Below, in pieces: positions 2,206-47,202 of a DNA stretch of 64,000 nucleotides. Position 1 is the first letter of the stretch. Every line of letters starts with the position of its first letter. Source of the DNA: Rossellomorea aquimaris (lineage in GTDB: Bacteria; Bacillota; Bacilli; Bacillales; Bacillaceae_B); assembly GCF_000935355.1 (NCBI RefSeq), contig NZ_JXZC01000004.1, positions 124,001-188,000 on the forward strand. Direction: 5' to 3'. A model generated the notes under the pieces. That model did no database searches. It was not told the origin of the DNA and saw only the letters and a program-made list of their open reading frames with translations. A program made the translations under genes and the position numbers.

Positions 2206-3162
2206 ATGAATAACCTAACCGAACTATTACATATAAAATATCCAATTATTCAAGGTGGAATGGGGAATATCAGCAATGCCCCGTTGACCGCGGCCATCTC
2301 GGAAGCCGGGGCGCTCGGTACGATCGGTGTAGGTACCATGGGTGTGGAGGAAGTGGAAACAATCATCGTTGAAACGAAAAAAAGAACCAGTAAACCATTC
2401 GCTCTAAATATCCCAATTTCCATCACCCCTTACTTGAAGGAAATGATTCGCTTAGTGGTGACACACGGGATACCGGTCGTTTCCTTATCAGCAGGAAATC
2501 CAACCCCACTGATTCCCTATTTCCACGAGCACAACGTAAAAGTGATCTGTGTCGTCGCTTCTAAAAAGCAGGGAAAGAAAGCGGAAGATGCCGGGGCAGA
2601 TGTCATCGTTGCAGAAGGCTATGAGGCTGCCGGGATCAACTCCAATCTTGAAACGACAACGCTTGCCCTTATTCCACAACTCGTCGATGCAGTGGACATT
2701 CCTGTCGTCGCGGCAGGAGGAATCGGTGATGGAAGGGGTCTCGCTTCCATGCTCGCTCTGGGTGCCAGTGGTGTGCAAATGGGAACGCGGTTCATTGCTA
2801 CACAGGAAGCACCTTTTCATGAGAACTATAAATCTACATTAGTGGAAGCAAAAGATGATAGCACGATCATCGTCGGGCGTTCTGTCGGAAGAGTGAGAAG
2901 GGTCATGAAAACGCCTTATGCTGCACAACTGATTCAAAAAGAACAAGAGGGGGTCGCCCTTGAAGAGTTCAGTCAAATGACCTCGGAGGATTATCACCGT
3001 GTCGGGGCACTGGAAGGGAAGCTGGATCAGGGATTCATCAACGGAGGGCAGGTGTCCGGCCTTGTGTCGGATGTTCCGGCTGTGAAGGAACTGGTAGAGA
3101 GAATGATGAATGATGCCCGTGGGATTTTCAGGAAGCTTTCGGGCAGCGGTGTGGAATCTTAA
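2206..3162 (+). CDS. Nitronate monooxygenase / FabK-like flavoprotein
   Basis: A 318-aa FMN TIM-barrel protein of the NMO/2-nitropropane dioxygenase group. Family marks are the N-terminal YPIIQGGMGNIS, the phosphate-binding VAAGGIGDGRG near residues 168-178 and GASGVQMGTRFIAT near 185-198. Such enzymes oxidise alkyl nitronates such as propionate 3-nitronate; close relatives reduce enoyl-ACP (FabK), which sequence alone does not separate. The start has an AAGGAGG site. It stands as a single gene behind the paaX terminator and ahead of a long gap, so it is probably transcribed alone. Confidence 0.85.
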   Translation: MNNLTELLHIKYPIIQGGMGNISNAPLTAAISEAGALGTIGVGTMGVEEVETIIVETKKRTSKPFALNIPISITPYLKEMIRLVVTHGIPVVSLSAGNPTPLIPYFHEHNVKVICVVASKKQGKKAEDAGADVIVAEGYEAAGINSNLETTTLALIPQLVDAVDIPVVAAGGIGDGRGLASMLALGASGVQMGTRFIATQEAPFHENYKSTLVEAKDDSTIIVGRSVGRVRRVMKTPYAAQLIQKEQEGVALEEFSQMTSEDYHRVGALEGKLDQGFINGGQVSGLVSDVPAVKELVERMMNDARGIFRKLSGSGVES

Positions 3163-3460: not shown

Positions 3461-3505
3461 TTGACTATTTTGTGACAGGAGTGATAATATAACGTTGTAT
3501 TTACG
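3461..3505 (+). promoter_or_regulatory. Sigma-A promoter and operator of the ABC transporter operon
   Basis: TTGACT (3461-3466), an 18-nt spacer, then TAATAT (3485-3490) preceded by TG (extended -10). Just downstream is CGTTGTATTTACG (3493-3505). The same layout occurs at 6714-6758 before the phenylalanine dehydrogenase operon. Confidence 0.7.
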
Positions 3506-3589: not shown

Positions 3590-4597
3590 GTGAAGAAGAA
3601 GAGTTTATTACTTGTTGTCATCTCAATGATGCTGGGAATGCTGGTTTTAGCGGGTTGTGGTAGTGATACAAGCTCAGGTGGAGGCGATGGTGAGAAACAA
3701 TATGTTATCGGGGTAACCCAAATTGTGGAACATCCGTCTTTAGATGCAGCCTTTGAAGGTTTTAAAAAGGCTTTAGCTGAAAATGGCCTTGAAGAAGGTA
3801 AGAATGTGAAGTTTGATGTTCAAATTGCTCAAGGGGATCCTACGAATTCACAAACGATCGCCAAGAACTTCGTTGGTGATGGCGTCGACCTCATCTTTGC
3901 AAACTCAACCCCAAGTGCTCAGCACGCATTAAATGCTACAAAGGAAATTCCAATCGTGTTCACGTCAGTGACTGATCCCGTTGGTGCAGAGTTAGTGAAG
4001 TCCTTCGAGGAGCCTGGTGAGAATATCACAGGAACCACAGATACTCATCCTGAAGCAATCTCTAAGACGATTTCATTTATTACAGATGAAATGAAAGCGA
4101 AAAATATAGGTGTTATTTATAACTCTGGTGAACAAAACTCTGTTGTACAGGCAGAAGAAGTGAAAAAGCTTGCTGAAGAAAAGGGAGCAAAAGTTGTTGA
4201 AGCTTCAGTATCTACGTCAGCAGATGTAAAGCAAGCGGCAGAATCACTGGTAGGTCGTGTGGATGCGATTTACGTTCCAACTGATAATACGGTTGTATCG
4301 GCATTGGAATCAGTCATCAGTGTCTCCAATGATAAAGATATTCCTTTATTTGTGGGTGAACTGGATTCAATGAAAAAAGGTGCGATTGCAGCTAGTGGAT
4401 TCAGCTACGAAGATCTTGGTTACGAAACGGGCCTGATGGCTGCAAAAATTTTAAAAGGTGAAAAGAAACCTTCTGAAATCAATGTTGAGTATCCAAAGAA
4501 CTTCAAGTTAATGATCAATAAGCAGGCCGCTGAAGAGCAAGGTGTAGAAGTCCAGGATGCATGGTCTGATTTAGGGGAATTTTACGAAGAGAAATAA
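3590..4597 (+). CDS. ABC transporter substrate-binding lipoprotein (TrpX/DUF534 type)
   Basis: A 335-aa secreted lipoprotein. It starts at GTG 3590 behind a G-rich ribosome site and has a signal peptide ending in the lipobox LVLAGC, so the mature protein would be anchored at Cys-23, followed by a Ser/Gly-rich linker. The rest is a two-lobe periplasmic-binding fold of the family used by Trp/Tyr-type and other importers (VIGVTQIVEHPSLD near the start of the mature domain, NITGTTDTHPEAI in the middle). It leads an operon with the permease and ATPase that follow. The ligand is unknown; the promoter shared with the PheDH operon argues for an aromatic amino acid. Confidence 0.85.
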   Translation: MKKKSLLLVVISMMLGMLVLAGCGSDTSSGGGDGEKQYVIGVTQIVEHPSLDAAFEGFKKALAENGLEEGKNVKFDVQIAQGDPTNSQTIAKNFVGDGVDLIFANSTPSAQHALNATKEIPIVFTSVTDPVGAELVKSFEEPGENITGTTDTHPEAISKTISFITDEMKAKNIGVIYNSGEQNSVVQAEEVKKLAEEKGAKVVEASVSTSADVKQAAESLVGRVDAIYVPTDNTVVSALESVISVSNDKDIPLFVGELDSMKKGAIAASGFSYEDLGYETGLMAAKILKGEKKPSEINVEYPKNFKLMINKQAAEEQGVEVQDAWSDLGEFYEEK

Positions 4598-4613
4598 GAA
4601 AGGATGATGATTC

Positions 4614-5633
4614 GTGCCAACAGCAATATTCGCATCCTTTGAATCTGGAATCATTTACGCTATTATGGCCCTCGGAGTCTACCTGTCCTTTCGGATATTG
4701 GATTTTCCTGATTTAACCGTCGATGGCAGCTTCGTTACAGGAGCCGCTGTCGCAGCAACCATGATTGTCAGTGGCGTAAATCCAGTCATCGCAACCATTA
4801 CAGCGATTGTCATCGGATTTGTTGCAGGATGTATAACAGGATTGCTTCACACATTTGGAAAAATCAATGCCTTATTATCAGGGATTTTAATGATGATCGC
4901 CCTTTATTCCATCAACCTCAGGATAATGGGGCGTTCGAATGTACCTTTACTTAGTCAGGATACTGCTTTTACAGGAGTGGAAGGGTTTTGGTCTCCACTG
5001 GGGATCGATGCCGCTCTCAATAAAATGTGGATGGCTGTGGGACTTGGGGAGCCTGTCCCGGGAACCTGGAGCATTTTATTTATCATGACGATCATTACCC
5101 TTGTGATCAAATTTTTGACGGATGGATTTTTGAAAACAGAAATCGGGTTGGCTTTAAGGGCGACAGGGGATAATCAGCGGATGATTCGCAGTTTCTCCGC
5201 TAATACCAATCTGATGATCATTCTTGGTTTAGGGATTTCGAATGGGATGGTCGCTCTATCCGGTGCCTTGATTGCCCAGTACAGTCGATTTGCAGATGTG
5301 GGAATGGGGATCGGGATGATCATCATCGGACTTGCTTCGGTTATCATCGGTGAGGCATTATTCGGAACCAAGACGATTGCCCGTACGACCTTAGCCGTTA
5401 TCGGTGGGGCAATCATCTACCGTTTGGTCGTTTCCATGGCCCTTCGCGTCGATTTCCTGGAAACAGGGGATATGAAGCTGATCACGGCGACAATCGTGAT
5501 TCTTGCACTTGTGATGCCTAAAGTGATGGATCGCTACAAGGATAAGAAACGAAAAGCTCAACGAATGGCAGAACGAATAAACAAGGCTCCAATCACAGAT
5601 GGAAAGGGTGAGAGCGGTGTTACAATTAAATAG
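4614..5633 (+). CDS. ABC transporter permease (branched-chain/TrpY-like)
   Basis: A 339-aa membrane protein with about eight to nine hydrophobic segments. It is the permease normally paired with DUF534-type binding proteins; marks are GVYLSFRILDFPDLTVDGSF near the N-terminus and a basic C-terminal tail. It starts at GTG 4614 with AAGGATGATGA upstream, 16 nt after the binding protein. Its 3' end overlaps the likely start of the ATPase gene by 17 nt, so the subunits are probably translationally coupled. It forms the membrane channel of the importer. Confidence 0.87.
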   Translation: MPTAIFASFESGIIYAIMALGVYLSFRILDFPDLTVDGSFVTGAAVAATMIVSGVNPVIATITAIVIGFVAGCITGLLHTFGKINALLSGILMMIALYSINLRIMGRSNVPLLSQDTAFTGVEGFWSPLGIDAALNKMWMAVGLGEPVPGTWSILFIMTIITLVIKFLTDGFLKTEIGLALRATGDNQRMIRSFSANTNLMIILGLGISNGMVALSGALIAQYSRFADVGMGIGMIIIGLASVIIGEALFGTKTIARTTLAVIGGAIIYRLVVSMALRVDFLETGDMKLITATIVILALVMPKVMDRYKDKKRKAQRMAERINKAPITDGKGESGVTIK

Positions 5634-6411
5634 AATTCACAAAGTATTTAATGAGGGGACACCCGACGAAAAAATCGCCCTTGATGACATCCAGCTGAAT
5701 CTGAAACCAGGGGATTTTGTCACTGTGATCGGAAGTAACGGAGCCGGGAAATCGACATTGATGAACATCGTTTCAGGTGTGCTTCTGCCCGATATCGGAA
5801 ATGTTCTCATTGATGATCATGACGTCTCAAAGGTTTCCGAGTATAAACGATCAAAGCTCATCGGTCGTGTGTTCCAGGATCCAATGGCAGGAACGGCACC
5901 TTCCATGACGATAGAAGAAAATCTGGCCATGGCGTATTCACGAAATCGTACACGTACCTTTAAAATGGGGGTAACCAAAAAACGGAGAGTGTTTTTTAAA
6001 GAAGTACTGGAAACTCTTCACTTAGGGTTAGAAAACCGATTGAACGCAAAGGTAGGATTATTATCGGGCGGGGAACGGCAAGCGCTCTCTCTATTGATGG
6101 CGACATTTACTGAGCCTTCGATCCTCCTGCTGGATGAGCATACGGCAGCGTTGGATCCTGCGAGAGCCGATCTGATTACAAACCTTACAAAAGAGATTGT
6201 AGAGAAGTATAAGCTCACAACCCTAATGGTGACGCATAACATGCAGCAGGCATTGGATCTTGGAAACCGCTTGATCATGATGGATAAGGGCCAAATCATC
6301 TTAGAGGTAAATGAAGAAGAGAAGAAGCACCTCACGGTCGAGGGACTTCTACACGAATTCCAACGCATACGTGGAAGCAAACTGGCCAGCGACCGGGCAC
6401 TTCTTTCATAA
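5617..6411 (+). CDS. ABC transporter ATP-binding protein (TrpZ-like)
   Basis: A 264-aa ATPase that energises the importer. Walker A is GSNGAGKST, the Q-loop lies around VFQDPMAGT, the signature is LLSGGERQALSL, Walker B is ILLLDEHTAALDP, and the H-loop is MVTHNMQQA. The start is chosen at GTG 5617 because AAAGGGTGAG (5603-5612) is well placed for it; an upstream in-frame ATG at 5599 lies before that site. It is the last gene of the three-gene operon and a clear terminator follows. Confidence 0.9.
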   Translation: MLQLNRIHKVFNEGTPDEKIALDDIQLNLKPGDFVTVIGSNGAGKSTLMNIVSGVLLPDIGNVLIDDHDVSKVSEYKRSKLIGRVFQDPMAGTAPSMTIEENLAMAYSRNRTRTFKMGVTKKRRVFFKEVLETLHLGLENRLNAKVGLLSGGERQALSLLMATFTEPSILLLDEHTAALDPARADLITNLTKEIVEKYKLTTLMVTHNMQQALDLGNRLIMMDKGQIILEVNEEEKKHLTVEGLLHEFQRIRGSKLASDRALLS

Positions 6412-6430
6412 GATTAACAACCTTCTACAA

Positions 6431-6463
6431 AAAGCAACGGGACTTTGTTCCGTTGCTTTTTTG
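6431..6463 (+). terminator. Terminator of the ABC transporter operon
   Basis: AAAGCAACGG (6431-6440) pairs with CCGTTGCTTT (6450-6459) and is followed by T residues. Confidence 0.9.
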
Positions 6464-6504
6464 TGTTAGGAAGATTTTAATTGTCTATCTGGAAAAGAGA
6501 GTCG

Positions 6505-6622
6505 TCCAGCTCCGGCGGCTAGAGGCTCGAGGTCATAAGGCGAACAGGCCAAAAAGGCAAAAAACGCCTTTCTGGCCTGTTCGCCTTATGCTTGTCGCCT
6601 CTGGGCAAGCCACCTCCGCTTT
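6505..6622. repeat. Interspersed 118-bp hairpin repeat, copy 1
   Basis: It begins TCCAGCTCCGGCGGCTAG, has a perfect 17-bp stem (6534-6550 with 6574-6590) enclosing a smaller GGC/CGCC hairpin, and ends in CACCTCCGCTTTT. Two tandem copies occur at 22053-22296 and a diverged relative at about 35190-35290. It resembles intergenic repeats common in Bacillaceae; its function is unknown. Confidence 0.85.
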
Positions 6623-6627
6623 TGAGT

Positions 6628-6667
6628 GAGGGACGGACCTTCGGCTTCGCCGATAGGTCCGTCCCTC
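6628..6667. repeat. GAGGGACGGACCT inverted repeat pair
   Basis: GAGGGACGGACCT (6628-6640) and its exact complement (6655-6667) flank a 14-nt loop that itself pairs (TCGGC/GCCGA). It has no T tract, so it is not an ordinary terminator. Confidence 0.85.
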
Positions 6668-6680
6668 TGCATAACTTATA

Positions 6681-6708
6681 TTAATATAATATTTTAAATA
6701 TTTTAACA
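6681..6708 (+). promoter_or_regulatory. AT-rich motif shared with the hpd upstream region
   Basis: TTAATATAATATT (6681-6693) plus a related 15-nt tail matches 13231-13258 upstream of hpd, identical over the first 13 nt and 9 of 15 in the tail. It lies just upstream of the -35 element and may be an activator or repressor site. Confidence 0.4.
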
Positions 6709-6713
6709 ATTTA

Positions 6714-6758
6714 TTGACTATTTATAAAACAAAATGTTATTATATCGTTGAATTAACG
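6714..6758 (+). promoter_or_regulatory. Promoter and palindromic operator of the phenylalanine dehydrogenase operon
   Basis: TTGACT (6714-6719), an 18-nt spacer, and TATTAT (6738-6743) with an extended TG. A perfect palindrome CGTT-GAATT-AACG (6746-6758) lies over the expected transcription start. Layout and sequence match the promoter at 3461-3505. Confidence 0.7.
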
Positions 6759-6801
6759 TTATATAAAAATATATAATTTGTTGGTTTAAAGGGGGAAAGC
6801 A

Positions 6802-7197
6802 ATGAAGTCTGGATTAGCAGAAGGACATACGGCAGTCGTCACAACAGAAGTAACCCCCAGCATGTACGCCCAGTTCGAAGGAAACGTGGTTCACCCCGTG
6901 TATTCAACGGTTTCAATGGTGTATCACATGGAATGGGCTTCGAGAAAAATCATTCTACCCTATTTGGAAGATCACGAAGAAGGGATGGGGGCAAAGGTGA
7001 ACGTCGAGCATATGGCTCCGGCGAAAACCGGTTCCTCTCTTGAAATTAAAGCGAGCGTTATTAAATATGAACGAAATATCATCGTAACCGAAGTGACTGT
7101 CAGAGATAGAGAGAATGACAGACTCATTGGAAAAGGTGAAGTAAAACAAGTCGTCCTGCCTAAAGAAAAAATAAAAGAAAGAATAAAAGAAAACTAG
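6802..7197 (+). CDS. Hotdog-fold thioesterase family protein
   Basis: A 131-aa protein resembling single-domain hotdog thioesterases of the fluoroacetyl-CoA thioesterase type: GNVVHPVYSTVSMVYHMEWASRK with the N-terminal helix, then GAKVNVEHMAPAKTGSSL. Such enzymes hydrolyse small or aromatic acyl-CoAs. It is the first gene of the operon and starts at ATG 6802 behind AAAGGGGGAAAG. Ahead of phenylalanine dehydrogenase and a 2-oxoacid dehydrogenase complex, it might hydrolyse an aryl-acyl-CoA and free CoA if flux backs up. The substrate is not known. The C-terminus is unusually rich in Lys and Glu. Confidence 0.75.
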   Translation: MKSGLAEGHTAVVTTEVTPSMYAQFEGNVVHPVYSTVSMVYHMEWASRKIILPYLEDHEEGMGAKVNVEHMAPAKTGSSLEIKASVIKYERNIIVTEVTVRDRENDRLIGKGEVKQVVLPKEKIKERIKEN

Positions 7198-7241
7198 TTT
7201 TGAGTACTTCTTGAATAAGAATGTAAAAGGAGGAAGCTTTA

Positions 7242-8411
7242 GTGTCCAACATAACGACAAAAGTGAAAGCGGTTACAAATAGAGAGCCGGCGGGGGGAAT
7301 AGAAATGGATATGTTTCAAAAAATACAAAACCATGAGCAGGTTGTATTCTGCAACGATGAAGAAACAGGACTCAAAGCCATCATCGCCATACATAATACC
7401 ACTCTCGGACCTGCACTGGGCGGATGTCGAATGAGACCTTATGCATCAGTGGATGAAGCATTGGAGGATGTTTTACGTTTATCAAAAGGAATGACCTACA
7501 AATGTGCCGCGGCCGATGTGGACTTTGGAGGAGGAAAAGCGGTAATTATCGGGGATCCCGAAAAAGACAAACATCCGGAGCTGTTCCGGGCTTTCGGTCA
7601 ATTCGTTGAATCCCTTAACGGACGATTCTATACAGGGACAGACATGGGGACCACGCCTGATGACTTTGTTTATGCCTTGAAAGAAACGAACTGTATCGTG
7701 GGCGTCAATGAAGAGTATGGAGGCAGCGGGGATTCATCCGTCCCGACTGCCATGGGAGTCATTTATGGCTTACAGGCAACCAACCAAAATGTGTGGGGCT
7801 CAAAGGATCTTCATGGAAAAAGCTACGCCATTCAAGGGTTGGGGAAAGTGGGATATAAGGTAGCCGAGCGCCTACTGGAAGAGGGAGCGGACCTCTATGT
7901 AACGGATATTAGCCAGAAATCCATCGATCAGTTGGTTTCCAAGGCGAAAAGTATGGGAGCGGCGATCAAGGTCGTAGCCGGGGATGAAATATACTCTGTT
8001 GATGCGGATGTATTCATACCGTGTGCCATCGGCGGGATCATCAACGATCATACAGTAGATCAACTAAAAGTAAAAGCGGTTGTAGGATCTGCCAATAACC
8101 AATTATTAGACATGACCCATGGAATGAAGCTGCATGAAAAAGGAATTCTTTACGCACCTGATTACATCGTCAATGCAGGCGGATTGATTCAAGTGGCTGA
8201 CGAATTATACGAACCGAACAAAGAACGCGTACTCCAAAAAACAAGTGCCATCTATAACAGCCTTCAGAATATTTATCTGCAATCAGAAAACCAGCACATG
8301 ACTACAGTCGAAGCAGCCAATCGTTTCTGTGAAGACCGCATTCATTCACGCACAAGAAGAAACAGCTTCTTCTCCCACGCGAAACGTCCGAAATGGTCGG
8401 TCAGGACATGA
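7242..8411 (+). CDS. pdh: Phenylalanine dehydrogenase (Glu/Leu/Phe/Val dehydrogenase family)
   Basis: NAD-dependent oxidative deamination of L-phenylalanine to phenylpyruvate. The 389-aa sequence follows my memory of Lysinibacillus sphaericus PheDH closely, including [17 protein letters not shown] and a PheDH-type tail ([14 protein letters not shown]) that leucine dehydrogenases lack. Catalytic residues are present: Lys-87 in MTYKCAA, Lys-99 in FGGGKAVI and Asp-134 in GTDMGTT; the NAD fold has GLGKVG. GTG 7242 is taken as the start because of a strong AAGGAGG site; ATG 7305 is a plausible alternative that still keeps the core. It is co-transcribed with the E1/E2/E3 genes. Leucine/valine dehydrogenase activity is the main alternative. 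Confidence 0.85.
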
Positions 8412-8466
8412 AATAGTAAATCAAGTGTTTACCGTAACAAAAAAAAGCACCACAAGAGGTGATGAA

Positions 8467-9531
8467 ATGAACGAGGAATTTCAATTGGTCCAGGTGATGG
8501 ATCAAAAAGGACAATTGGTTCAAGACGGGTATGAAAAGGACATTTCAGAAGACTTGGTCCGTACATTTTATCGGCATTTAATCAGGATCCGTACCTTTGA
8601 TAAGAAAGCGGTGAGCCTGCAGCGACAAGGCCGGATCGGGACCTATGCTCCTTATGAAGGACAGGAGGCATCCCAGGTGGGGAGCGCACTTGCCCTAAAG
8701 GATAAAGACTGGTTATTCCCGTCCTATCGCGATCATGGCGCAACCATGACATTCGGACATTCCCTGCTTCATATTCTCCTATTCTGGAAAGGTCGGAATG
8801 AAGGGTGTGTGCCACCGGAAGGAAAGAATATTTTCACTCCCGGTATTCCGATAGCGACTCAGCTTCCACATGCGGTGGGTGCGGCTTTCGCCGAGAAGAG
8901 AAAAGGAACACGGAATGCAGCGATTGTATATTTTGGTGATGGTGCCACTTCAGAGGGTGACTTTCATGAAGGATTGAACCTGGCAAGCGTCTGGGAGGCC
9001 CCGGTTGTATTTTTTAATCAAAATAATCACTACGCCATCTCTGTTCCCATGCACAAGCAAATGAAAACGAAAACCATTGCCCAGAAGGCAATCGCGTATG
9101 ACATTCCAAGCGTACGCATCGACGGCAATGATATTTTTGCTGTTTATTTTGAAACGTTGAAAGCATTGGAGCGAGCAAGGAACGGGGACGGACCTACCTT
9201 GATCGAGTCCGTGACCTGGAGATATGGTGCCCACACGACCGCCGATGATCCGACCAAGTACCGTGATCAGCAGGAAAGTGAGATCCGTCGCAAGGAGAAC
9301 GATCCTGTCGAACGCTTAACGAGATTCATGAAACAAAGAGGCTGGTTCGATGAGGAGTGGATGACTTCCGTTCAAAAGGAATGTGCGAAGGAAGTGGACC
9401 TTGCTGTCGAGGAGTTGGAAGCCTACCCGGCCGCAGATCCGAGTCTGATCTTCGATTATGTGTTTGCCACTCCGACGTGGACAATCCAGGAACAAAAAGA
9501 AAAGCTCCTTGAGCTATGGAGAGGTGAGTAG
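8467..9531 (+). CDS. 2-oxoacid dehydrogenase E1 alpha subunit
   Basis: A 354-aa thiamine-diphosphate subunit that decarboxylates a 2-oxoacid together with E1 beta. The TPP motif runs from GDGATSEGDFHEGLN to NQNNHYAIS; the phosphorylation-loop equivalent is YRYGAHTTADDPTKYR-like (WRYGAHTTADDPTKYR). The start at 8467 has AGAGGTGATGAA just upstream; an earlier in-frame ATG (8329) lies within the PheDH gene and has no ribosome site. Sequence similarity leans to PdhA/BkdAA-type alpha chains. Coupling to PheDH suggests phenylpyruvate or other aryl/branched oxoacids as substrate, which is inference. It contains GGGACGGACCT at 9184-9194, a near-match to the local repeat core. Confidence 0.9.
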   Translation: MNEEFQLVQVMDQKGQLVQDGYEKDISEDLVRTFYRHLIRIRTFDKKAVSLQRQGRIGTYAPYEGQEASQVGSALALKDKDWLFPSYRDHGATMTFGHSLLHILLFWKGRNEGCVPPEGKNIFTPGIPIATQLPHAVGAAFAEKRKGTRNAAIVYFGDGATSEGDFHEGLNLASVWEAPVVFFNQNNHYAISVPMHKQMKTKTIAQKAIAYDIPSVRIDGNDIFAVYFETLKALERARNGDGPTLIESVTWRYGAHTTADDPTKYRDQQESEIRRKENDPVERLTRFMKQRGWFDEEWMTSVQKECAKEVDLAVEELEAYPAADPSLIFDYVFATPTWTIQEQKEKLLELWRGE

Positions 9532-9532
9532 A

Positions 9533-10528
9533 ATGAGCACCTTAACAAAAATGAAGACATTGACGATGGTTCAAGCCATCACGGACGCCATGAGGGTGAT
9601 GCTTGAAGAAAACGAGGATGTCCTGTTAATGGGCGAAGACATCGGAACGAATGGTGGGGTATTTCGGGCAACGGACGGTCTTCAACAGGAATTTGGGGAA
9701 GACAGGGTTCTCGATACACCATTAAGTGAAGCAGGCTTTATTGGAGCGGCTATTGGAATGGGGTTAAACGGTTTTCGTCCTGTAGCTGAGGTCCAATTTT
9801 TAGGATTCATCTATCCAGCATACGAACAGATCATGACCCATGCTTCCCGCTTGCGTTCCCGTACTCTTGGTCATTTTACCTGCCCGTTGGTGATACGTGC
9901 TCCTTATGGGGCTGGAGTCAGAGCACCTGAAATTCACTCCGATAGTACAGAAGCGCTTTTTACACATATGCCGGGAATAAAAGTTGTTTGTCCAGCAACA
10001 CCGTATGATGCGAAGGGACTGTTGATTGCTGCCATTGAAGATCCGGATCCCATTCTTTTCTTGGAGCCTATGAGATGCTATCGATCTTCCCGTGAAGAAG
10101 TGCCGGAGGAAAAGTATACGGTGGAAATCGGGAAAGGAAAAGTAGTCAAAGAGGGTGAAGATGTCACGATCATCGCTTGGGGAGCCATGGTGAAGGTTGC
10201 CGAGGATGCTGCTAAGGAAGCGGCAGGTAAAGACATTTCCTGCGAAGTCCTTGATTTAAGGACACTCTATCCCCTGGATAAGGACCTCATTTCAAGTTCT
10301 GTCCAGAAAACGGGAAGAACCGTGATTGTACATGAAGCCCATGCCACTGGTGGAGTCGGAAATGATGTGCTGGCGATTATCAATGATACATCCTTTTTAT
10401 ATCAAAAGGCTCCGACTGAACGGGTGACTGGATTCGATACCCCTGTTCCTTATTTCGGATTTGAAGATTTCTATCTGCCTGACAGCAAACGTGTAGTAGC
10501 GGCAGTGGAAAAAGTAGCACGCTATTAG
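9533..10528 (+). CDS. 2-oxoacid dehydrogenase E1 beta subunit
   Basis: A 331-aa transketolase-like beta chain. Marks are the N-terminal MVQAITDAMRVMLEENEDV, LLMGEDIG and LNGFRPVAEVQFLGFIYPA, plus the C-terminal transketolase domain (about residues 200-325) with VIVHEAHATGGVG. The start ATG 9533 follows the alpha-subunit stop by one base, with GAGGTGAG overlapping the end of the alpha gene. With E1 alpha it forms the heterotetrameric decarboxylase. An upstream in-frame start at 9458 lies inside the alpha gene and is rejected. Pyruvate, branched-chain and aryl oxoacid complexes share this subunit type. Confidence 0.9.
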   Translation: MSTLTKMKTLTMVQAITDAMRVMLEENEDVLLMGEDIGTNGGVFRATDGLQQEFGEDRVLDTPLSEAGFIGAAIGMGLNGFRPVAEVQFLGFIYPAYEQIMTHASRLRSRTLGHFTCPLVIRAPYGAGVRAPEIHSDSTEALFTHMPGIKVVCPATPYDAKGLLIAAIEDPDPILFLEPMRCYRSSREEVPEEKYTVEIGKGKVVKEGEDVTIIAWGAMVKVAEDAAKEAAGKDISCEVLDLRTLYPLDKDLISSSVQKTGRTVIVHEAHATGGVGNDVLAIINDTSFLYQKAPTERVTGFDTPVPYFGFEDFYLPDSKRVVAAVEKVARY

Positions 10529-10543
10529 ATAAGGAGGGAGTCC

Positions 10544-11728
10544 ATGGAAGTTAAGCTTCATGATATTGGGGAAGGCATGACCGAAGCCAATATCAATCAC
10601 TTTCTTGTAAAAGTGGGAGATGTCGTAAAAGCCGATCAACCATTAGTAGAGGTTCAAACAGATAAAATGACTGCGGAAATTCCGGCACCTTTTTCAGGTG
10701 TGATCAAGGAGTTTACGGTAAGTGAAGGGGAAACGATTCCAGTGGGATCCACGGTTCTGTTGATGGATCAAGAACACGTGAAGCAGTCCTTAGGCAAGCG
10801 TTCCATTTCACAAACAACGCAAGTGATGAAGAAAAGAAGGATCCTTGCATCCCCGTATACGAGGAAAATAGCAAGGGAGAATGGTATCAACCTAGAAGAA
10901 GTGGTTGGTTCCGGAGCGGGAGGAAGAATCCTTGATGAAGATATTTTCCTCTATATGAAAGGAGAAAGTCAGACATCTCCACAGCCGGTTGAAGAATCTA
11001 AAACCGTTACTCCTGTAGCATCAAAAGAACCCGACACGATGACGATTCCATTCCGGGGAAGACGCAAACAAATTGCATCTAAAATGTCACAGTCACTCAG
11101 AACGATCCCGCACTGTACCCATTTTGAAGAAATCGATGTTACGAACCTGCTATCCTGGAAAGATAACATGAAAGCGGGGCGCGGGTCCATTTCTATGGGA
11201 GCTTATTTTATCAAAGCCATTTCTATCTGTTTAAAAGAGTTCCCGATCTTCAACGCCCGCCTCAATGAACAGGAGGAATGTGTCGAGATCCAGTCCCATC
11301 ACAATATTGGAATCGCTGTAGATACGGACGAAGGGCTGATCGTTCCTGTCATTAAACAGGTCGAGCTGAAAACAATGAGGGACATCCATAGGGAAATGAA
11401 GGAACTGACCGTTAACGCACAGGAAGGCAAGTTAACGATGAAAGATATCAAAGGCGGAACCTTCACGATCAGTAACGTAGGACCCCTGAACGGGTCGATC
11501 GGAGCCACTCCGATCATTAACGAACCGGAAGTTGCCCTCCTTGCTTTCCATAAAACGAAGAAGCGTCCGATGGTGAATGATAAAGATGAAATTGTCGTCC
11601 GTTCAATGATGAATGTGTCTATGTCATTTGATCATAGAGTGGTAGATGGCGGAACGGCCGTTAAGTTTACGAATCGATTACGGGATTTGATTGAACAGCC
11701 CGAGTCCATGCTTTTGGAGTTGATGTAA
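10544..11728 (+). CDS. Dihydrolipoamide acyltransferase E2
   Basis: A 394-aa E2 core. An N-terminal lipoyl domain (about 1-78) carries the lipoylated lysine in VQTDKMTAEIPAP near residue 43; the peripheral subunit-binding domain is at about 103-140 (LASPYTRKIARENGI, GRILDEDI); the catalytic domain is at about 165-394, with HRVVDGG holding the active-site histidine and aspartate. It passes the acyl group from lipoyl to CoA. One lipoyl domain is usual for branched-chain type E2. It has an AAGGAGGGAG site 15 nt after E1 beta, and the E3 gene starts directly after its stop codon. Confidence 0.92.
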   Translation: MEVKLHDIGEGMTEANINHFLVKVGDVVKADQPLVEVQTDKMTAEIPAPFSGVIKEFTVSEGETIPVGSTVLLMDQEHVKQSLGKRSISQTTQVMKKRRILASPYTRKIARENGINLEEVVGSGAGGRILDEDIFLYMKGESQTSPQPVEESKTVTPVASKEPDTMTIPFRGRRKQIASKMSQSLRTIPHCTHFEEIDVTNLLSWKDNMKAGRGSISMGAYFIKAISICLKEFPIFNARLNEQEECVEIQSHHNIGIAVDTDEGLIVPVIKQVELKTMRDIHREMKELTVNAQEGKLTMKDIKGGTFTISNVGPLNGSIGATPIINEPEVALLAFHKTKKRPMVNDKDEIVVRSMMNVSMSFDHRVVDGGTAVKFTNRLRDLIEQPESMLLELM

Positions 11729-13156
11729 ATGGTAGTGGGAGAGATCACGGAAGATAAAGAGATTGTCGTCATCGGGGGAGGTCCGGGCGGCTATCATGCA
11801 GCCATCCGGGCTGCGGGTTTAGGACTGAAAGTGACCCTGATCGAAAGAGAAGAGCTGGGAGGGACCTGCTTGAATAAAGGGTGCATCCCATCAAAAGTCT
11901 TTACCCATTTTGCCCAAGAATTTAAAAAGACGAAGCACCTGAAGGAGATGGGGATGGAGTTTGGGGAAGTAGAAGCAAACCTCTCTTCTCTTCAACACTA
12001 TAAAAATAAAAAGATCACCCAGCTTCGTACAGGGATAGAATCCCTGTGCAGAGCGAATAAGGTTGAAATCGTCAAGGGTTCTGCATCCTTCCTGTCAGAA
12101 TCCCGTATTGGAGTTGAAAACGGCCATGAGTTTTCCCTTTTCAATTTCAAGCAAGCCATTGTCGCGACCGGTGGTGAATTTCATTACCCGGAAGGAATAG
12201 AATTTGATTCGATTCATGTACTAAAGGAGAGAGAAATCTTTCAGCTGGAGGAAATACCAGAGGAACTCATTGTATATGGGACCGATTATATTTCCCTAGA
12301 GATCGCGTCTGTTTTCTCTATATTGGGAAGTCATGTCACCCTTATTTTGAACGGGGAAATTCCATTTGACTCTGCCATATCCAAAGAGCTGTTCAGACAG
12401 TTAAAAAAGCAGAAGGTCAATGTAATCAAGAATTCTCCGCTGCAAGCTGCCAGTCAAGCTGAAGCAAAAGTCACAGTGAACCTTGACAGGGGGAACGGAG
12501 AAGTCGTTTCAATCGAAGGCTCACATTTTGTCGCAAGCGGAAAAGTTAAGCCGAACCTATCAGACCTCGGCCTTGACCGTCTCCGTGTTGAATTAACCGA
12601 TGAGGATTATATCCGGACAGATCGGGAGGGACGGACCTCCATACCGAATATTTGGGCGATCGGCGATGTCACGGAAGGTCCGTCCCTCGCAGTCAAGGCG
12701 ATCAAACAGGGGAAGGCGGCAGCCGAGGCAATGGCTGGGCTTCAAGTGGAAGTAGATCTTCAGTTTGTGCCGACGGTGGTGCAGATGAGTCCTCCTATTG
12801 CATGCGCAGGAATGACGGAGGAAGAAGCCGGACGGGCAGGTTATTCGGTTAAAGTAAGTGAAAACCCTCTCAGAGGAAACGGGTACGCTCAGCTGACAGA
12901 GGAGAAGGATGGATTCGTGAAAGTCGTGTCAGACAGTGAAACGGATTTGATCCTGGGTATTCATATAATGGGGATGGGAGCAGCCGAGTTGATCACCTCA
13001 GGGGTACTTGGTCTTGAAATGGCAGCGAGAGATGAGGACTTTCGTTTTCCACTTTACCCCCACCCAAACATGAATGAAAGTCTTCTGGAAGCGGTCGAAG
13101 GATTAAAGGGGGACGCCGTGCATATGCCTCCCAGAAAAAAAGAGCCCGCGAGATAA
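11729..13156 (+). CDS. Dihydrolipoyl dehydrogenase E3
   Basis: A 475-aa FAD disulfide oxidoreductase that reoxidises dihydrolipoamide with NAD. Marks are the FAD motif GGGPGGYHAAIRAAGLG, the redox disulfide GGTCLNKGCIPSK, the second FAD motif IWAIGDVTEGPSLAVKA, and the C-terminal HPNMNE-type active-site histidine. ATG 11729 directly follows the E2 stop codon. The stretch coding for the conserved FAD motif is flanked by inverted copies of GAGGGACGGACCT at 12626-12638 and 12676-12688, which is odd. Residues around 185-215 (YGTDYISLEIASVFS) lack the exact GxGxxG NAD signature, so cofactor binding may be atypical. Confidence 0.9.
   Translation: MVVGEITEDKEIVVIGGGPGGYHAAIRAAGLGLKVTLIEREELGGTCLNKGCIPSKVFTHFAQEFKKTKHLKEMGMEFGEVEANLSSLQHYKNKKITQLRTGIESLCRANKVEIVKGSASFLSESRIGVENGHEFSLFNFKQAIVATGGEFHYPEGIEFDSIHVLKEREIFQLEEIPEELIVYGTDYISLEIASVFSILGSHVTLILNGEIPFDSAISKELFRQLKKQKVNVIKNSPLQAASQAEAKVTVNLDRGNGEVVSIEGSHFVASGKVKPNLSDLGLDRLRVELTDEDYIRTDREGRTSIPNIWAIGDVTEGPSLAVKAIKQGKAAAEAMAGLQVEVDLQFVPTVVQMSPPIACAGMTEEEAGRAGYSVKVSENPLRGNGYAQLTEEKDGFVKVVSDSETDLILGIHIMGMGAAELITSGVLGLEMAARDEDFRFPLYPHPNMNESLLEAVEGLKGDAVHMPPRKKEPAR
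12626..12688. repeat. GAGGGACGGACCT inverted pair inside the E3 gene
   Basis: A perfect 13-bp inverted repeat with a 37-nt loop lies in frame in the coding region; it spans the codons for EGRTSIPN to EGPSL. Confidence 0.9.
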
Positions 13157-13230
13157 AAAGCGGTCGTGACTTCATCGCAGAGAAGCGTTTAAGCTTTACT
13201 AGCCGCTCTTGAGAAGTTCTATAAAACTAT

Positions 13231-13258
13231 TTAATATAATATTCAGAATATACTAACG
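13231..13258 (+). promoter_or_regulatory. AT-rich motif upstream of hpd
   Basis: TTAATATAATATT (13231-13243) and its tail CAGAATATACTAACG match 6681-6708. It contains a possible -10 (TATAAT 13235-13240) with TTGAGA at 13209-13214, but the 20-nt spacing is poor. Confidence 0.4.
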
Positions 13259-13276
13259 TTCAATGGAGGGATTGAG

Positions 13277-14392
13277 ATGCAAGAGAATGTAGCAAAAAAG
13301 CAGGTTAAAGTAGAAGAAGTCTTCCCTGTAAGAGATGTTGATTATTTAGAGTATTATACGGGGAATGCAAAGCAGGCCGCCCATTTCTTCTGTACAGCAT
13401 TCGGATTTAAGACCGTTGCCTATTCAGGACTGGAAACAGGAAATCGCGACACAGTATCCTATGTACTGCAACAAAATAAAGTACGATTGGTTATTACAGG
13501 AAGCCTGCACGAAGGAAGCCGTGTGTCCCAATTCGTGAAACATCATGGAGACGGCATTAAAGATATCGCCCTTGTGGTGGATGATGTTGAAAAGGCTTAC
13601 ACTGGAGCGGTGTCCCGCGGTGCGATTGAAATCATGTCACCTTCGACGCTCGAAGATGATAACGGAAAACTAAAAAAAGCCATCATTGGTACATACGGGG
13701 ATACAATCCATACCCTTGTGGAGCGTAAAGATTATAAGGGAATCTTCATGCCAGGCTTTGAAAAGTATGATTCCGCTCTTAAAAATGAAGATGCCGGTAT
13801 CATCGCTGTCGACCATGTAGTAGGAAACGTGGAGCGCATGGAAGAGTGGGTGGAATATTACGAAAAAGTGATGGGCTTCAAGGAAATGCGCCATTTCACA
13901 AATGAAGACATTACAACGGAATACTCCGCCCTTATGTCCAAGGTCATGCATAACGGCGGTCGCATCAAATTCCCGATCAATGAGCCGGCCGAGGGAAAAC
14001 GTAAATCACAAATCCAGGAATACCTTGAGTTCTACGGTGGTCCAGGAGTTCAGCACATTGCCATCTTAACTGAAGACATCGTGAAAACAGTCGGTATTTT
14101 AAAAGAAAACGGGGTAGAATTCCTTAACACGCCGGATTCCTATTACGACATGCTTTCAGAGCGTGTAGGAGAAATCGACGAAGAGATTTCTAAAATCAAA
14201 GAGTTGAATATTTTAGTAGACCGTGATGACGAAGGCTACCTGCTTCAAATTTTCACAAAGCCAATCGTTGATCGTCCGACCCTATTCATTGAAGTGATTC
14301 AACGAAAGGGTGCAAGAGGATTCGGAGAAGGAAACTTCAAAGCATTATTCGAATCCATCGAGCGGGAGCAGGAACGCAGAGGAAACCTATAA
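13277..14392 (+). CDS. hpd: 4-hydroxyphenylpyruvate dioxygenase
   Basis: A 371-aa non-heme iron enzyme that converts 4-hydroxyphenylpyruvate to homogentisate. Two vicinal-oxygen-chelate domains are visible: DVDYLEYYTGNAKQAAHFF at the N-terminus and VDHVVGNVERMEEWVEYYE in the middle. The expected iron ligands are the His in VDHVVGNV (about 176), the His in GVQHIAILTEDI (about 258) and the Glu in LFIEVIQRKG (about 338). The C-terminal helix region GFGEGNFKALFESIE is typical. GGAGGGATTGAG precedes ATG 13277. It begins the homogentisate operon. Phenylpyruvate is a weaker known substrate of the family. Confidence 0.95.
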   Translation: MQENVAKKQVKVEEVFPVRDVDYLEYYTGNAKQAAHFFCTAFGFKTVAYSGLETGNRDTVSYVLQQNKVRLVITGSLHEGSRVSQFVKHHGDGIKDIALVVDDVEKAYTGAVSRGAIEIMSPSTLEDDNGKLKKAIIGTYGDTIHTLVERKDYKGIFMPGFEKYDSALKNEDAGIIAVDHVVGNVERMEEWVEYYEKVMGFKEMRHFTNEDITTEYSALMSKVMHNGGRIKFPINEPAEGKRKSQIQEYLEFYGGPGVQHIAILTEDIVKTVGILKENGVEFLNTPDSYYDMLSERVGEIDEEISKIKELNILVDRDDEGYLLQIFTKPIVDRPTLFIEVIQRKGARGFGEGNFKALFESIEREQERRGNL

Positions 14393-14584
14393 AAATAAAA
14401 AATAGATAGATAGATAGAACATATATAACGGGGGTCAAAGGACCGGTCAGGGGGTTAACTCATGAAGAGATTAGCTGCTTCTACTTATAATATTGTACGC
14501 ACTGCGGGTACTATATTTGAACGAGAAGATAAGCTAACACGTGAGTCAACCCCCTTCATCCATGAGAAAGGCGGGGATTCATGT

Positions 14585-15694
14585 ATGACACTAAAGTTCA
14601 AAACAAGAGAAGCGGTCACACATATCGCTCCATATGTGCTGGGGAAAACGCTCTCAGACTTACAGAAAGAGCATGGTCTGAGCTCTATCAGAAAGCTATC
14701 AGAAAATGAAAACATATATGGCTGCTCTCCAAAAGTGAAGCAGTGGTTTAAAGAAAACGGAAGCGACTTGTTTTTGTATCCGGACGGAGCTGCCGTCGAC
14801 CTTAGTCATAAGGTAGCGACATTTTTAGGCGTGCCTAAGGAACAGCTCGTGTTTGGGAATGGCTCGGATGAAGTGATCCGATTATTGACGAGAGCCTATT
14901 TGAGCAGCGGGGATGAAGCCATCATGGCCGACGTTACATTTCCCAGGTATCAAACCAATGTGTCCTTAGAAGGGGGTACCCCGGTTATCGTTCCTTTAGT
15001 CAACGGTACCCATGACCTGCAAGCGATGCACGACCAGATCACTCCGAACACCAAGCTGATCTTTGTGTGTAATCCTAATAATCCAACCGGAACCATCGTC
15101 GGTAAAAACGAACTACTGCAGTTTATCGAGAGCGTGCCGTCACACATCCTGGTAGTAGTGGATGAAGCGTATATGGAATACGTCACAACCGATGATTATT
15201 TAGAAACCCTGCCGCTGCTGTCGGCATTCGAAAATCTGATTGTTCTCAGAACTTTTTCCAAGATATATGGCCTTGCGGGTTTAAGAGTCGGCTTCGGGGT
15301 CATGAACGAAGAAGTTGCCGAACAGCTCCGAAAAGTGAAAGATGTTTTCAATGTTAATACGGTTGCTCAGAAGTCAGCGATCATCGCACTTGAGGATCAG
15401 GCATTTATAAGAGAGTGCACCCATAAGAACGAGCGGGGTCGCCTCTTTTTAGAAGGGGAGTTTGACCGTCTGGGTGTATCCTATTTCCCCTCTCAATCGA
15501 ACTTTATCATGGTGGATACCGGATTGAATGGTGACACGGTCTCCTATGAGCTTGTAAAAAGGGGACTGGTTGTCCGTTCAGGAACTCTTCTTGGGTACCC
15601 CACGACCGTACGGGTCACGATTGGAACAGAAGGGGATAACAAGAGGTTCATACAGGCATTGGAAGATATATTACAAAGTGAAGGGGTGAAATAA
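14585..15694 (+). CDS. Aminotransferase, HisC-like (probably aromatic amino acid aminotransferase)
   Basis: A 369-aa class I/II PLP enzyme. The PLP lysine is in RTFSKIYGLAGLRVG (about residue 225); CNPNNPTGT and DEAYMEY are the other cofactor motifs. The family is histidinol-phosphate aminotransferase, but its place in a tyrosine-degradation operon points to transamination of tyrosine/phenylalanine to the arylpyruvates used by HPD. The start is set at 14585, where the family-like N-terminus MTLKFKTREAV begins, with AGGCGGGG upstream. An in-frame ATG at 14462 with a weaker G-rich site would add 41 non-conserved residues. Confidence 0.85.
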   Translation: MTLKFKTREAVTHIAPYVLGKTLSDLQKEHGLSSIRKLSENENIYGCSPKVKQWFKENGSDLFLYPDGAAVDLSHKVATFLGVPKEQLVFGNGSDEVIRLLTRAYLSSGDEAIMADVTFPRYQTNVSLEGGTPVIVPLVNGTHDLQAMHDQITPNTKLIFVCNPNNPTGTIVGKNELLQFIESVPSHILVVVDEAYMEYVTTDDYLETLPLLSAFENLIVLRTFSKIYGLAGLRVGFGVMNEEVAEQLRKVKDVFNVNTVAQKSAIIALEDQAFIRECTHKNERGRLFLEGEFDRLGVSYFPSQSNFIMVDTGLNGDTVSYELVKRGLVVRSGTLLGYPTTVRVTIGTEGDNKRFIQALEDILQSEGVK

Positions 15695-16306
15695 ATGGAT
15701 ATCAAACCTCGTACCCTTCAGTGGCAGGACGCTTATAAATTAATGGTTGGTTCGATTTTACCTCGTCCGATTGCATTCGTTTCATCTCTTGATGAAGGAG
15801 GGAATGCGAATCTTGCACCATACAGCTTTTTTACGGCCATTTGTGCCGACCCGATGCTCGTTTGCTTCTCTCCCATGAGAAAGGGAAAGGATGGCAGCAA
15901 AAAGGATACCCTTACAAATATCGAGAACACGAAGGAATTCGTCATCAATATCGTGAGTGAAGAGTTCGTGGACAAAATGAATAATTGTGCCATTGAATAT
16001 GAATCGGGCGTTGATGAATTCGAACAGGTCGGTCTGACGAAGAAAGAGTCCATCACGGTAAAGCCTCCAGGAGTATTTGAAAGCAAGGTTCAATTGGAAT
16101 GCGTTCTTCATGAGGTTCTTCACTTCGGCGATCATCCCGGTGCAGGGAGTCTCGTGATCGGAAAGGTAGAATGTGTAAGAATCGATGACGAACTCTATTA
16201 CGACGGCAAAATAGATTCAGAGAAATTAAAGCCGGTAGGTAGACTGGCTGGACAAATGTATACCAAACCATTATCCGATTCATTTGAATTGATTCGAAAA
16301 AGGTGA
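15695..16306 (+). CDS. Flavin reductase-like FMN-binding protein
   Basis: A 203-aa split-barrel flavoprotein of the flavin reductase-like family; LVGSILPRPIAFVSSLDEGG-like residues near the N-terminus (MVGSILPRPIAFVSS) and NLAPYSFFTAICADPMLV are typical. ATG 15695 immediately follows the aminotransferase stop. Relatives reduce FMN with NAD(P)H for a partner monooxygenase or bind FMN with other roles. No partner oxygenase of that type is in this operon, so its job in tyrosine catabolism is unclear. Confidence 0.82.
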   Translation: MDIKPRTLQWQDAYKLMVGSILPRPIAFVSSLDEGGNANLAPYSFFTAICADPMLVCFSPMRKGKDGSKKDTLTNIENTKEFVINIVSEEFVDKMNNCAIEYESGVDEFEQVGLTKKESITVKPPGVFESKVQLECVLHEVLHFGDHPGAGSLVIGKVECVRIDDELYYDGKIDSEKLKPVGRLAGQMYTKPLSDSFELIRKR

Positions 16307-16312
16307 TGACAA

Positions 16313-17296
16313 GTGAAGCTTGTTAGCTTTGTAAAAGAAGGAGAATTAAGAGCAGGTATCGTTCAAGGTGAACTTGCAGCGGACCTGCATGCCATTAGCC
16401 AAGGAACTCTCCCTAAGGATATATTGTCCATTATCGATCTTGGGGAAGAAGGATTGAAAAAGATAAAAGAGATCGGACCCTTTTCTGCTGGAGATAAGGG
16501 AGTGTATCATTTGCGTGATATCACGCTAAAGGCGCCGATTCCGAGGCCTGTCAGCATACGGGATTTCTATGCTTTTGAAGAGCATGTGAAAACGGCACGG
16601 AAGCGGAGGGGACTTGAAGTGGTCCCGGAATGGTATGACGTCCCTGTATTTTATTTCACCAATCATTTAGCAGTGAAGGGTCCGAACGAGCACATTGAAA
16701 AGCCTGTTGACTGTGAGTGGCTGGATTATGAACTGGAAATCGCCTGCGTCATTGGAAAAGAAGGCAGAAACATTTCAAAGGAAACAGCAGAAGATCATAT
16801 TTACGGTTATTTTATCATGAACGACTGGAGTGCAAGGGACATTCAGAAACATGAAATGAAAGTCGGTCTCGGGCCAGCGAAAGGGAAGGATTTTGCCACT
16901 TCATTCGGTCCTTATTTGGTGACGGGGGATGAACTGGAGTCTAATCGGAGAGGAAACCGTTTTGATCTGTCCATGACGGCCAAAGTGAATGGGAAGCTCT
17001 TGTCCCAAGGGAATTATCTCGATATTCATTATACGTTCGCTGATATGATCGAACGTGCCTCAAAAGACGTCACCCTTTATCCGGGAGAGGTCATTGGGTC
17101 AGGAACCGTCGGAACAGGCTGCATATTAGAACTTGGTCCTGAGACACATCCCTGGTTAAAACCAGGGGATGTGGTGGAATTAGAGATTGCCGGTCTGGGA
17201 ATTTTGCGTAATACAGTTGCAAGCAGAAGAGAGGGGGAAGACCATGTATTATCGACAAATGGGGAAAATACCTCACAAACGTCACACCATGTTTAA
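16313..17296 (+). CDS. Fumarylacetoacetate hydrolase family protein
   Basis: A 327-aa FAH-fold enzyme, expected to cleave fumarylacetoacetate to fumarate and acetoacetate (or the maleyl form). Marks are the acidic metal site DYELEIACVIGKEGRNI, GYFIMNDWSARDIQ and KGKDFATSFGPYLV, and the C-terminal GSGTVGTGCILELG. It starts at GTG 16313 with AGGTGATG upstream, 6 nt after the flavin reductase gene. Its last 53 nt overlap the start of the homogentisate dioxygenase gene. No maleylacetoacetate isomerase is visible in the cluster, so this enzyme may act on maleylacetoacetate directly or the isomerase is elsewhere. Confidence 0.88.
   Translation: MKLVSFVKEGELRAGIVQGELAADLHAISQGTLPKDILSIIDLGEEGLKKIKEIGPFSAGDKGVYHLRDITLKAPIPRPVSIRDFYAFEEHVKTARKRRGLEVVPEWYDVPVFYFTNHLAVKGPNEHIEKPVDCEWLDYELEIACVIGKEGRNISKETAEDHIYGYFIMNDWSARDIQKHEMKVGLGPAKGKDFATSFGPYLVTGDELESNRRGNRFDLSMTAKVNGKLLSQGNYLDIHYTFADMIERASKDVTLYPGEVIGSGTVGTGCILELGPETHPWLKPGDVVELEIAGLGILRNTVASRREGEDHVLSTNGENTSQTSHHV

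Positions 17297-24036: not shown

Positions 24037-24040
<4 letters not shown>
22319..24040 (+). CDS. ilvB: Acetolactate synthase, large (catalytic) subunit
   Basis: A 573-aa TPP/FAD enzyme that condenses two pyruvates, or pyruvate with 2-oxobutyrate. Marks are the catalytic Glu region [31 protein letters not shown], and the TPP motif [19 protein letters not shown] to [22 protein letters not shown] precedes ATG 22319. It is the first gene of the T-box controlled operon and overlaps ilvN by ATGA. The N-terminal twenty or so residues are variable, as usual. Confidence 0.96.
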
Positions 24041-47173: not shown

Positions 47174-47202
47174 GCGGTCTCATCCTTTCCATACTAAAGA
47201 GG

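Follow-up and report, generated by a model that had tools for sequence, protein, structure and literature searches.

A six-gene operon linking phenylalanine dehydrogenase to a 2-oxoacid dehydrogenase complex

We analysed 64,000 nucleotides of Rossellomorea aquimaris (NCBI RefSeq assembly GCF_000935355.1, contig NZ_JXZC01000004.1, positions 124,001 to 188,000 of the forward strand), here called the window, and describe a six-gene operon on its + strand (6802-13156) that, judging from its sequence and setting, probably encodes a phenylpyruvate dehydrogenase complex making phenylacetyl-coenzyme A (phenylacetyl-CoA). The genes are, in order, an FlK-type hotdog thioesterase (6802-7197; PF22636, 114 bits), phenylalanine dehydrogenase (PheDH; 7242-8411; Glu/Leu/Phe/Val dehydrogenase family), E1 alpha of the predicted phenylpyruvate dehydrogenase (8467-9531; E1_dh PF00676, 301 bits), E1 beta (9533-10528; Transket_pyr PF02779 and Transketolase_C PF02780), E2 with one lipoyl domain, an E3-binding domain and an acyltransferase domain (10544-11728; PF00364, PF02817, PF00198) and E3, dihydrolipoyl dehydrogenase (11729-13156; TIGR01350, 413.6 bits against a cut-off of 408.8). 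All the constituents of a 2-oxoacid dehydrogenase complex are present: a thiamine diphosphate-dependent E1 of alpha and beta subunits, an E2 with its three domain types, and an E3. The intergenic gaps are 44, 55, 1, 15 and 0 bases, and the gene order and tight spacing described in an earlier sequence-only reading hold in place, strand and order. That reading also claimed one promoter, for which there is one clear promoter-like site in front of the operon, TTGACT-18-TATTAT with a TG before the -10 element (sigma-A-like, a consensus match; 6714-6743, + strand); a second promoter-like match overlaps it (6748-6777, + strand). These two best + strand matches both precede the first gene, and the + strand matches within the operon are two weak ones (9/12 each; 8746 and 12297). 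In the region 6350-13400, scanned on both strands, promoter matches numbered 17 against 9.9 in shuffles (standard deviation 3.2), and terminator-like sites numbered 10 against 7.0 (standard deviation 3.0), those on the + strand all being intragenic. A single promoter is therefore likely.

Catalytic and pocket residues have been listed for the PheDHs of Bacillus badius and B. halodurans (PMC8543943, PMC9728165). The PheDH of the window carries the B. badius residue at 16 of 16 such positions and is 68% identical to that enzyme, while the leucine dehydrogenase (LeuDH) of the same genome departs from B. badius PheDH at six positions (86, 123, 124, 126, 144 and 306). Each of Gly123, Thr124 and Met126 is conserved in 108 of 109 E1-linked PheDHs, the remaining one having a gap, and Val144, which is less fixed, in 93. 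By its predicted pocket, the dehydrogenase is of the phenylalanine type, as first proposed. In B. badius NBRC 15713, a 380-residue PheDH matches 14 of 14 published residues, with numbering identical to that in print, and directly behind it come an E1 alpha and the first part of an E1 beta, both identified from translations. The PheDH of B. badius is a characterised enzyme, which may have come from this strain. A further copy of the E1 genes in B. badius (L181) has no PheDH with it.

The genome contains three E1 alpha genes: that of the operon, one belonging to a pdh operon, and a third in a bkd operon that also holds LeuDH, lpd, E1 and E2, with ptb and buk assigned by eye from order and sequence. 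The operon E1 alpha is 39% identical to the genome's own PdhA and 38% to its BkdAA, and with these lying in separate operons it is not the orthologue of either. In all 61 Bacillales genomes tested (E value up to 1e-120), both pdhA and bkdAA were present, and therefore the complex of the operon is an addition. The nearest solved structures are E1s, 1W85/3DUF (E value 4e-79 for alpha and 1e-109 for beta), the pyruvate dehydrogenase E1 of Geobacillus stearothermophilus; the window's genome has a pdh operon of its own. Acetoin dehydrogenase is disfavoured as the identity of the complex, on context only.

Distribution and gene neighbourhoods in Bacillales

We surveyed 299 Bacillales genomes for E1 (E value up to 1e-100) and for PaaA, a subunit of the PaaABCD epoxidase of the phenylacetate (paa) pathway (E value up to 1e-60); the genomes with each of E1, PaaA and PheDH were listed manually from match lists. 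At these thresholds, E1 was found in 125 genomes and PaaA in 126. Counting E1 at 55% identity or more, which left out seven genomes whose best E1 fell below that value, 118 genomes remained: 111 had both genes, 7 had E1 only, 15 PaaA only and 166 neither (Fisher p 1e-55, kinship ignored). For E1 and PheDH (at least 62% identity), the corresponding numbers were 105, 13, 11 and 170, and all three genes occurred together in 105 genomes. Of the genera, 22 were chosen by eye; E1 varies within 16 of them, and in 12 of these 16 E1 and PaaA agree in every listed member.

Gene neighbourhoods were counted in two sets that overlap in species and are not independent: an order set of 78 stretches with E1, hand-picked from the match list, of which 68 count at an E1 identity of at least 55% (8 contigs end early), and a named set in which 68 of 80 loci pass. 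L127 (a copy of L094) and L077 (a second copy in genome G076) were left out. In 56 of the 68 order-set stretches, PheDH precedes E1 by at most five genes, and in 6 a HisC-type aminotransferase does so; 49 contain one or more paa or paaX genes, and 45 have PheDH together with paa. FlK is found in 48, E2 in 65, E3 in 54 and 4-hydroxyphenylpyruvate dioxygenase (HPPD) in 19. The named set gave 51 for PheDH, 5 for HisC and 51 for paa. Because the arrangement recurs in those 56 order-set loci, the operon order is not due to chance. Over 106 loci having both genes, the gap between PheDH and E1 has a median of 15 bases and is at most 100 bases in 93. The same PheDH-E1 order beside paa is seen in four Exiguobacterium loci (L177, L191, L192 and L201), and Thermoactinomyces mirandus, a relative at 49% identity (L212), has the order PaaF-like, PaaG-like, PheDH, E1 alpha, E1 beta, E2. 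By E1, the nearest named relatives of the window are Rossellomorea, 91-92% identical. In two Paenibacillus loci (L203 and L204), a distant E1 and E2 (52-53%) are followed by an ATP-binding cassette (ABC) ATPase-like gene and proteins of 777 and about 1500 residues; these genes are possibly a biosynthetic cluster.

Genes around the operon

The upstream paa thiolase and PaaX-type regulator of the sequence-only reading are both there: the C-terminal part of a PaaJ-like thiolase (17-733, + strand; thiolase match), last gene of a paa operon that crosses the left edge of the window, and the PaaX repressor (1204-2079, + strand; TIGR02277 equivalog, 353 bits against a cut-off of 264.6). To the left of the window, this paa operon holds a PaaK-like ligase (632 bits, slightly under the cut-off of 646), PaaA, B, C and D, enoyl-CoA hydratases, an aldehyde dehydrogenase and a 3-hydroxyacyl-CoA dehydrogenase, followed by the edge-crossing thiolase. 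The four epoxidase proteins and PaaX are equivalog matches over cut-off, which identifies the paa pathway. Between PaaD and PaaF, a short EthD-like frame was recognised by eye (L004, a paa-side stretch, 15134-15480).

Behind paaX come a nitronate monooxygenase-family gene (2206-3162; PF03060), with relatives in 53 of the 68 order-set stretches and to our knowledge no established role in phenylacetate breakdown, and a TrpX-like ABC uptake system of binding protein, permease and ATPase (3590-6411, + strand; PF04392, PF02653, PF00005). The binding protein scores 282 bits with NF041285, under the cut-off of 390, and the system probably takes up aromatic amino acids. Directly behind the operon, the neighbouring tyrosine branch (homogentisate route) begins with HPPD (13277-14392, + strand; TIGR01263, 468 bits against a cut-off of 277) and continues with HisC-like aminotransferase, flavin reductase-like, FAH-family and homogentisate dioxygenase-like (HGO-like) genes (14582-18389, + strand). 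Kynurenine formamidase and kynureninase genes, recognised by eye on the - strand (46550-48486), place tryptophan breakdown on the same stretch.

A palindrome shared with paa-side promoters

Just behind the -10 element of the operon's promoter lies the palindrome CGTTGAATTAACG (6746-6758, + strand), an exact match to CGTT-N5-AACG and a probable operator and candidate PaaX site. This pattern was chosen after reading promoters and counted on the same data, in which the loci are related; the counts cover intergenic stretches of at least 80 bases, with identical stretches taken once and L127, L130 and L001 left out. The palindrome is exact at 44 of 76 FlK promoters (55 with at most one mismatch), at 10 of 56 TrpX promoters (30), at 3 of 58 PaaX promoters (15), at 4 of 10 PaaA promoters (7) and at 1 of 35 promoters of the monooxygenase gene (8). 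Before a PheDH standing first, it is exact in 3 of 26 cases (also 3 with one mismatch allowed), and at PaaK promoters in 0 of 10 (1). None of 26 HPPD promoters has it, exact or with one mismatch, and unassigned other genes have it exact in 2 of 376 cases (25 with at most one mismatch). Letter shuffles of the promoter groups gave 0-0.5% exact and 2.5-5% with one mismatch. As a sequence pattern, the putative operator ties the operon to the transporter and the paa-side genes, not to the tyrosine branch.

Palindromes with one mismatch also lie before paaX (1153-1165), the monooxygenase gene (2180-2192) and trpX (3493-3505) of the window, and that of paaK has two mismatches. The whole window has 4 exact palindromes, 6746-6758 plus three elsewhere, and 29 with at most one mismatch against 19.2 expected, a mild excess reached in 3 of 100 shuffles. 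We infer that PaaX would read the palindrome; together with the site at the PheDH operon, those before paaX, the monooxygenase gene and trpX are a possible PaaX regulon of Bacillales. In Escherichia coli, phenylacetyl-CoA relieves PaaX.

E1 alpha residues, tree and the aminotransferase-linked form

At 15 positions of E1 alpha, every one of which is 90% or more fixed within its group, 107 PheDH-linked rows are set apart from 30 rows of Pdh and 30 of Bkd. One of them is Thr59 of the operon E1 alpha, the alignment partner of Phe66 in the Thermus enzyme (1UM9); Phe stands there in 30 of 30 Pdh rows, in 30 of 30 Bkd rows and in the 1W85/3DUF-type pyruvate dehydrogenase E1. The E1 pocket lies between alpha and beta, and Thermus Phe66 contacts the substrate side chain, which gives a hint that Thr59 would make room for a phenyl ring. 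At E1 beta, Arg130 was dropped as a substrate mark, as the Thermus enzyme also has Arg there.

A quick tree was built from 120 E1 alpha rows, among them 66 of the 109 PheDH-linked rows, chosen for diversity and including L212. In it, the operon E1 alpha falls in a clade of 91 rows (support 99): 65 PheDH-linked, 10 other paa-linked, 9 HisC-linked and 7 other. Pdh rows and Bkd rows each form a group of their own (support 100), and three rows from other settings lie nearer to Pdh. L212 is a long branch whose placement is unsure.

Seven genomes of the survey have E1 and lack PaaA (G086, G123, G139, G190, G202, G240 and G304), and in the six that were read (all except G123) a HisC-type aminotransferase lies upstream of E1. 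Of 10 HisC-linked rows in the tree, 9 form one nested subclade (support 97). By family scan, the neighbours at L093 are of the HpaG N- and C-terminal types (256 and 396 bits, over their cut-offs), with a further one at 110 bits against the 5-carboxymethyl-2-hydroxymuconate isomerase model (under the cut-off of 215), and L107 has a neighbour of the HpaG C-terminal type (394 bits). Outside the scan, FAH-family neighbours were seen at L097, L109 and L123, and none was seen in the stretch of L108. This setting points to the HisC-linked form as a candidate 4-hydroxyphenylpyruvate dehydrogenase, a tyrosine version feeding the homoprotocatechuate pathway, and supports aryl substrates for the E1 clade. 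The HisC-linked loci seen are L093, L097, L107, L108, L109, L123, L165, L167, L180, L188 and L202; seven of them other than L093 and L107 have FAH-family neighbours, and L093 has an NhaC antiporter.

Proposed function and its alternatives

We propose a route by which the operon would carry phenylalanine into the paa pathway, and infer its steps as follows. PheDH would deaminate phenylalanine to phenylpyruvate with formation of reduced nicotinamide adenine dinucleotide (NADH). E1 alpha and beta would decarboxylate phenylpyruvate on thiamine diphosphate and load the phenylacetyl group onto E2's lipoyl arm, and E2 would transfer it to CoA; E3 would reoxidise the lipoyl arm with NAD. The phenylacetyl-CoA could then go straight to the PaaABCD epoxidase of the paa pathway, bypassing phenylacetaldehyde, free phenylacetate and the PaaK ligase, which costs adenosine triphosphate (ATP). 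The palindrome behind the promoter is probably where PaaX represses the operon, and the FlK-type thioesterase probably frees CoA when phenylacetyl-CoA accumulates. The conversion of phenylpyruvate to phenylacetyl-CoA suggested in the sequence-only reading is thus favoured as the predicted reaction by the PheDH pocket, the presence of a third complex, the paa genes next door, the co-occurrence with PaaA and the shared putative operator. With less assurance, we think it rather probable that the operon represents an arylpyruvate dehydrogenase clade of Bacillales aromatic amino acid breakdown, distinct from Pdh and Bkd, in which a PheDH form would make phenylacetyl-CoA for paa under the PaaX palindrome and an aminotransferase form would make 4-hydroxyphenylacetyl-CoA for the homoprotocatechuate pathway. 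Such a clade would also account for what the long-used phenylalanine dehydrogenases of Bacillus do in nature.

Several observations weigh against the proposed phenylpyruvate dehydrogenase assignment. Operon-type E1 is missing from 15 genomes with PaaA and 11 with PheDH, and E1 is accompanied by none of PheDH, HisC and paa at 2 of the 68 loci in the order set and at 6 of the 68 in the named set. On the tree, PheDH-linked E1s are clustered and are not one clade (15 changes against a shuffled mean of 39). Thr59 is Thr in 109 of 109 PheDH-linked, 12 of 12 HisC-linked and 34 of 34 other clade members, rows L136-L215 having been retrieved with a pattern containing that Thr and rows L051-L129 without it. 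The alignment with PdhA and BkdA that the sequence-only reading had proposed does bring out a difference from Phe, but one that is clade-wide: because HisC-linked and other members also have Thr, it marks the sampled clade and not the substrate, and we rejected it as a mark of phenylpyruvate use. E1 alpha scores 472 bits with TIGR03181, named pyruvate dehydrogenase E1 alpha (cut-off 411), a model that does not seem to separate the operon's E1 clade from pyruvate dehydrogenase. A same-clade E1 (65% identity; L076, 5618-12964) has neighbours that look by eye like genes for butyrate kinase and phosphotransbutyrylase, and by this locus 65% identity leaves the substrate unfixed. Phenylalanine also has a second exit through tyrosine, because an aromatic amino acid hydroxylase is present (PF00351 over cut-off in two stretches in 579-residue frames, contig C1, 637680-638483); given this biopterin-dependent hydroxylase, phenylalanine can leave by that way too. 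Finally, an IorA match below threshold lies in an 870-residue frame.

Phenylpyruvate is elsewhere turned into phenylacetyl-CoA or phenylacetate by indolepyruvate/phenylpyruvate ferredoxin oxidoreductase or by phenylpyruvate decarboxylase plus aldehyde dehydrogenase, which belong to other enzyme families than the complex of the window. As to ALTERNATIVES in the genome, IorA and two phenylpyruvate/indolepyruvate decarboxylase families gave nothing over cut-off, a weak absence given the controls (IorA in 2 of 14 genomes, decarboxylases in 0 of 14). The decarboxylase match below cut-off is an acetolactate synthase-like gene of the window (22319-24040).

An unlikely alternative, and the one that survives best, is a broad arylpyruvate dehydrogenase with 4-hydroxyphenylpyruvate or indolepyruvate as its main or equal substrate. 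The nested HisC-linked subclade, with Hpa genes in both scanned loci (L093 and L107), would fit it, as would the HPPD and HGO-like genes directly behind the operon; HPPD, however, already gives 4-hydroxyphenylpyruvate a route here, accompanies E1 far less often than PheDH does (19 against 56 of 68 order-set stretches) and has no palindrome at any of the 26 promoters. That the complex is an extra pyruvate or branched-chain dehydrogenase, beside PheDH by chance, we consider very improbable: the NCBIfam name, the clade member beside ptb- and buk-like genes (L076) and the bkd operon (L006), which likewise pairs LeuDH with E1, speak for it, but pdhA and bkdAA are already in every genome tested, the distribution of E1 tracks PaaA and the palindrome is common to paa-side genes. 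Least credible of all is a supply of free phenylacetate, with FlK-type thioesterase hydrolysing phenylacetyl-CoA and PaaK reactivating the product, which the FlK gene opening the operon, the PaaK-like ligase of the paa operon and the product named in a passage on Exiguobacterium (PMC2615787) would allow, but which would waste ATP, leaves aside that PaaK has its own use for outside phenylacetate, and meets no FlK in 20 of 68 order-set stretches (8 contigs being short).

Relation to known systems and significance

The phenylpyruvate dehydrogenase complex that we favour is not wholly new as a reaction or as an idea, whereas the sequence-only reading took a dedicated complex of this kind to be new. 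For Exiguobacterium sibiricum 255-15, one sentence of the 2008 genome paper states that a pyruvate dehydrogenase beside phenylalanine dehydrogenase could act on phenylpyruvate; the product is given as phenylacetate, and that passage contains no comparison or test (PMC2615787). In pristinamycin synthesis, PglB/PglC is reported to be a complex resembling pyruvate dehydrogenase that yields phenylacetyl-CoA (PMC7089894) and is named phenylpyruvate dehydrogenase (PMC10685826). As these passages describe it, the Streptomyces pristinaespiralis system resembles ours in its pyruvate dehydrogenase-like E1 alpha/beta and its reaction, but it is biosynthetic (phenylglycine) and actinobacterial, with two E1 subunits in an antibiotic cluster; the pglA-E operon as described is without PheDH, its own E2 or its own E3, unlike the operon of the window. 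The bkd operon with LeuDH follows the same logic for leucine and valine, with an amino acid dehydrogenase and E1/E2/E3 in one operon, and differs in its LeuDH pocket and its ptb- and buk-like genes, its E1 being a 38% paralogue in the same genome. What does stand of the claimed novelty concerns Bacillales: the open-licence literature on phenylpyruvate with phenylacetyl-CoA and on phenylpyruvate dehydrogenase yielded no assay of, or paper on, such a complex, a weak absence, and showed neither a catabolic complex that has an E2 and an E3 of its own and is linked to PheDH, paa and the palindrome, nor the hydroxyphenyl variant.

If our proposal is true, the 2-oxoacid dehydrogenase complexes of primary metabolism would gain a further class of substrate, and the step from phenylpyruvate to phenylacetyl-CoA would be filled in a large order, in which 118 of the 299 genomes sampled have this E1. 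The proposal would also explain why these bacteria carry phenylalanine dehydrogenase, and it would correct the name pyruvate dehydrogenase given by the NCBI model.

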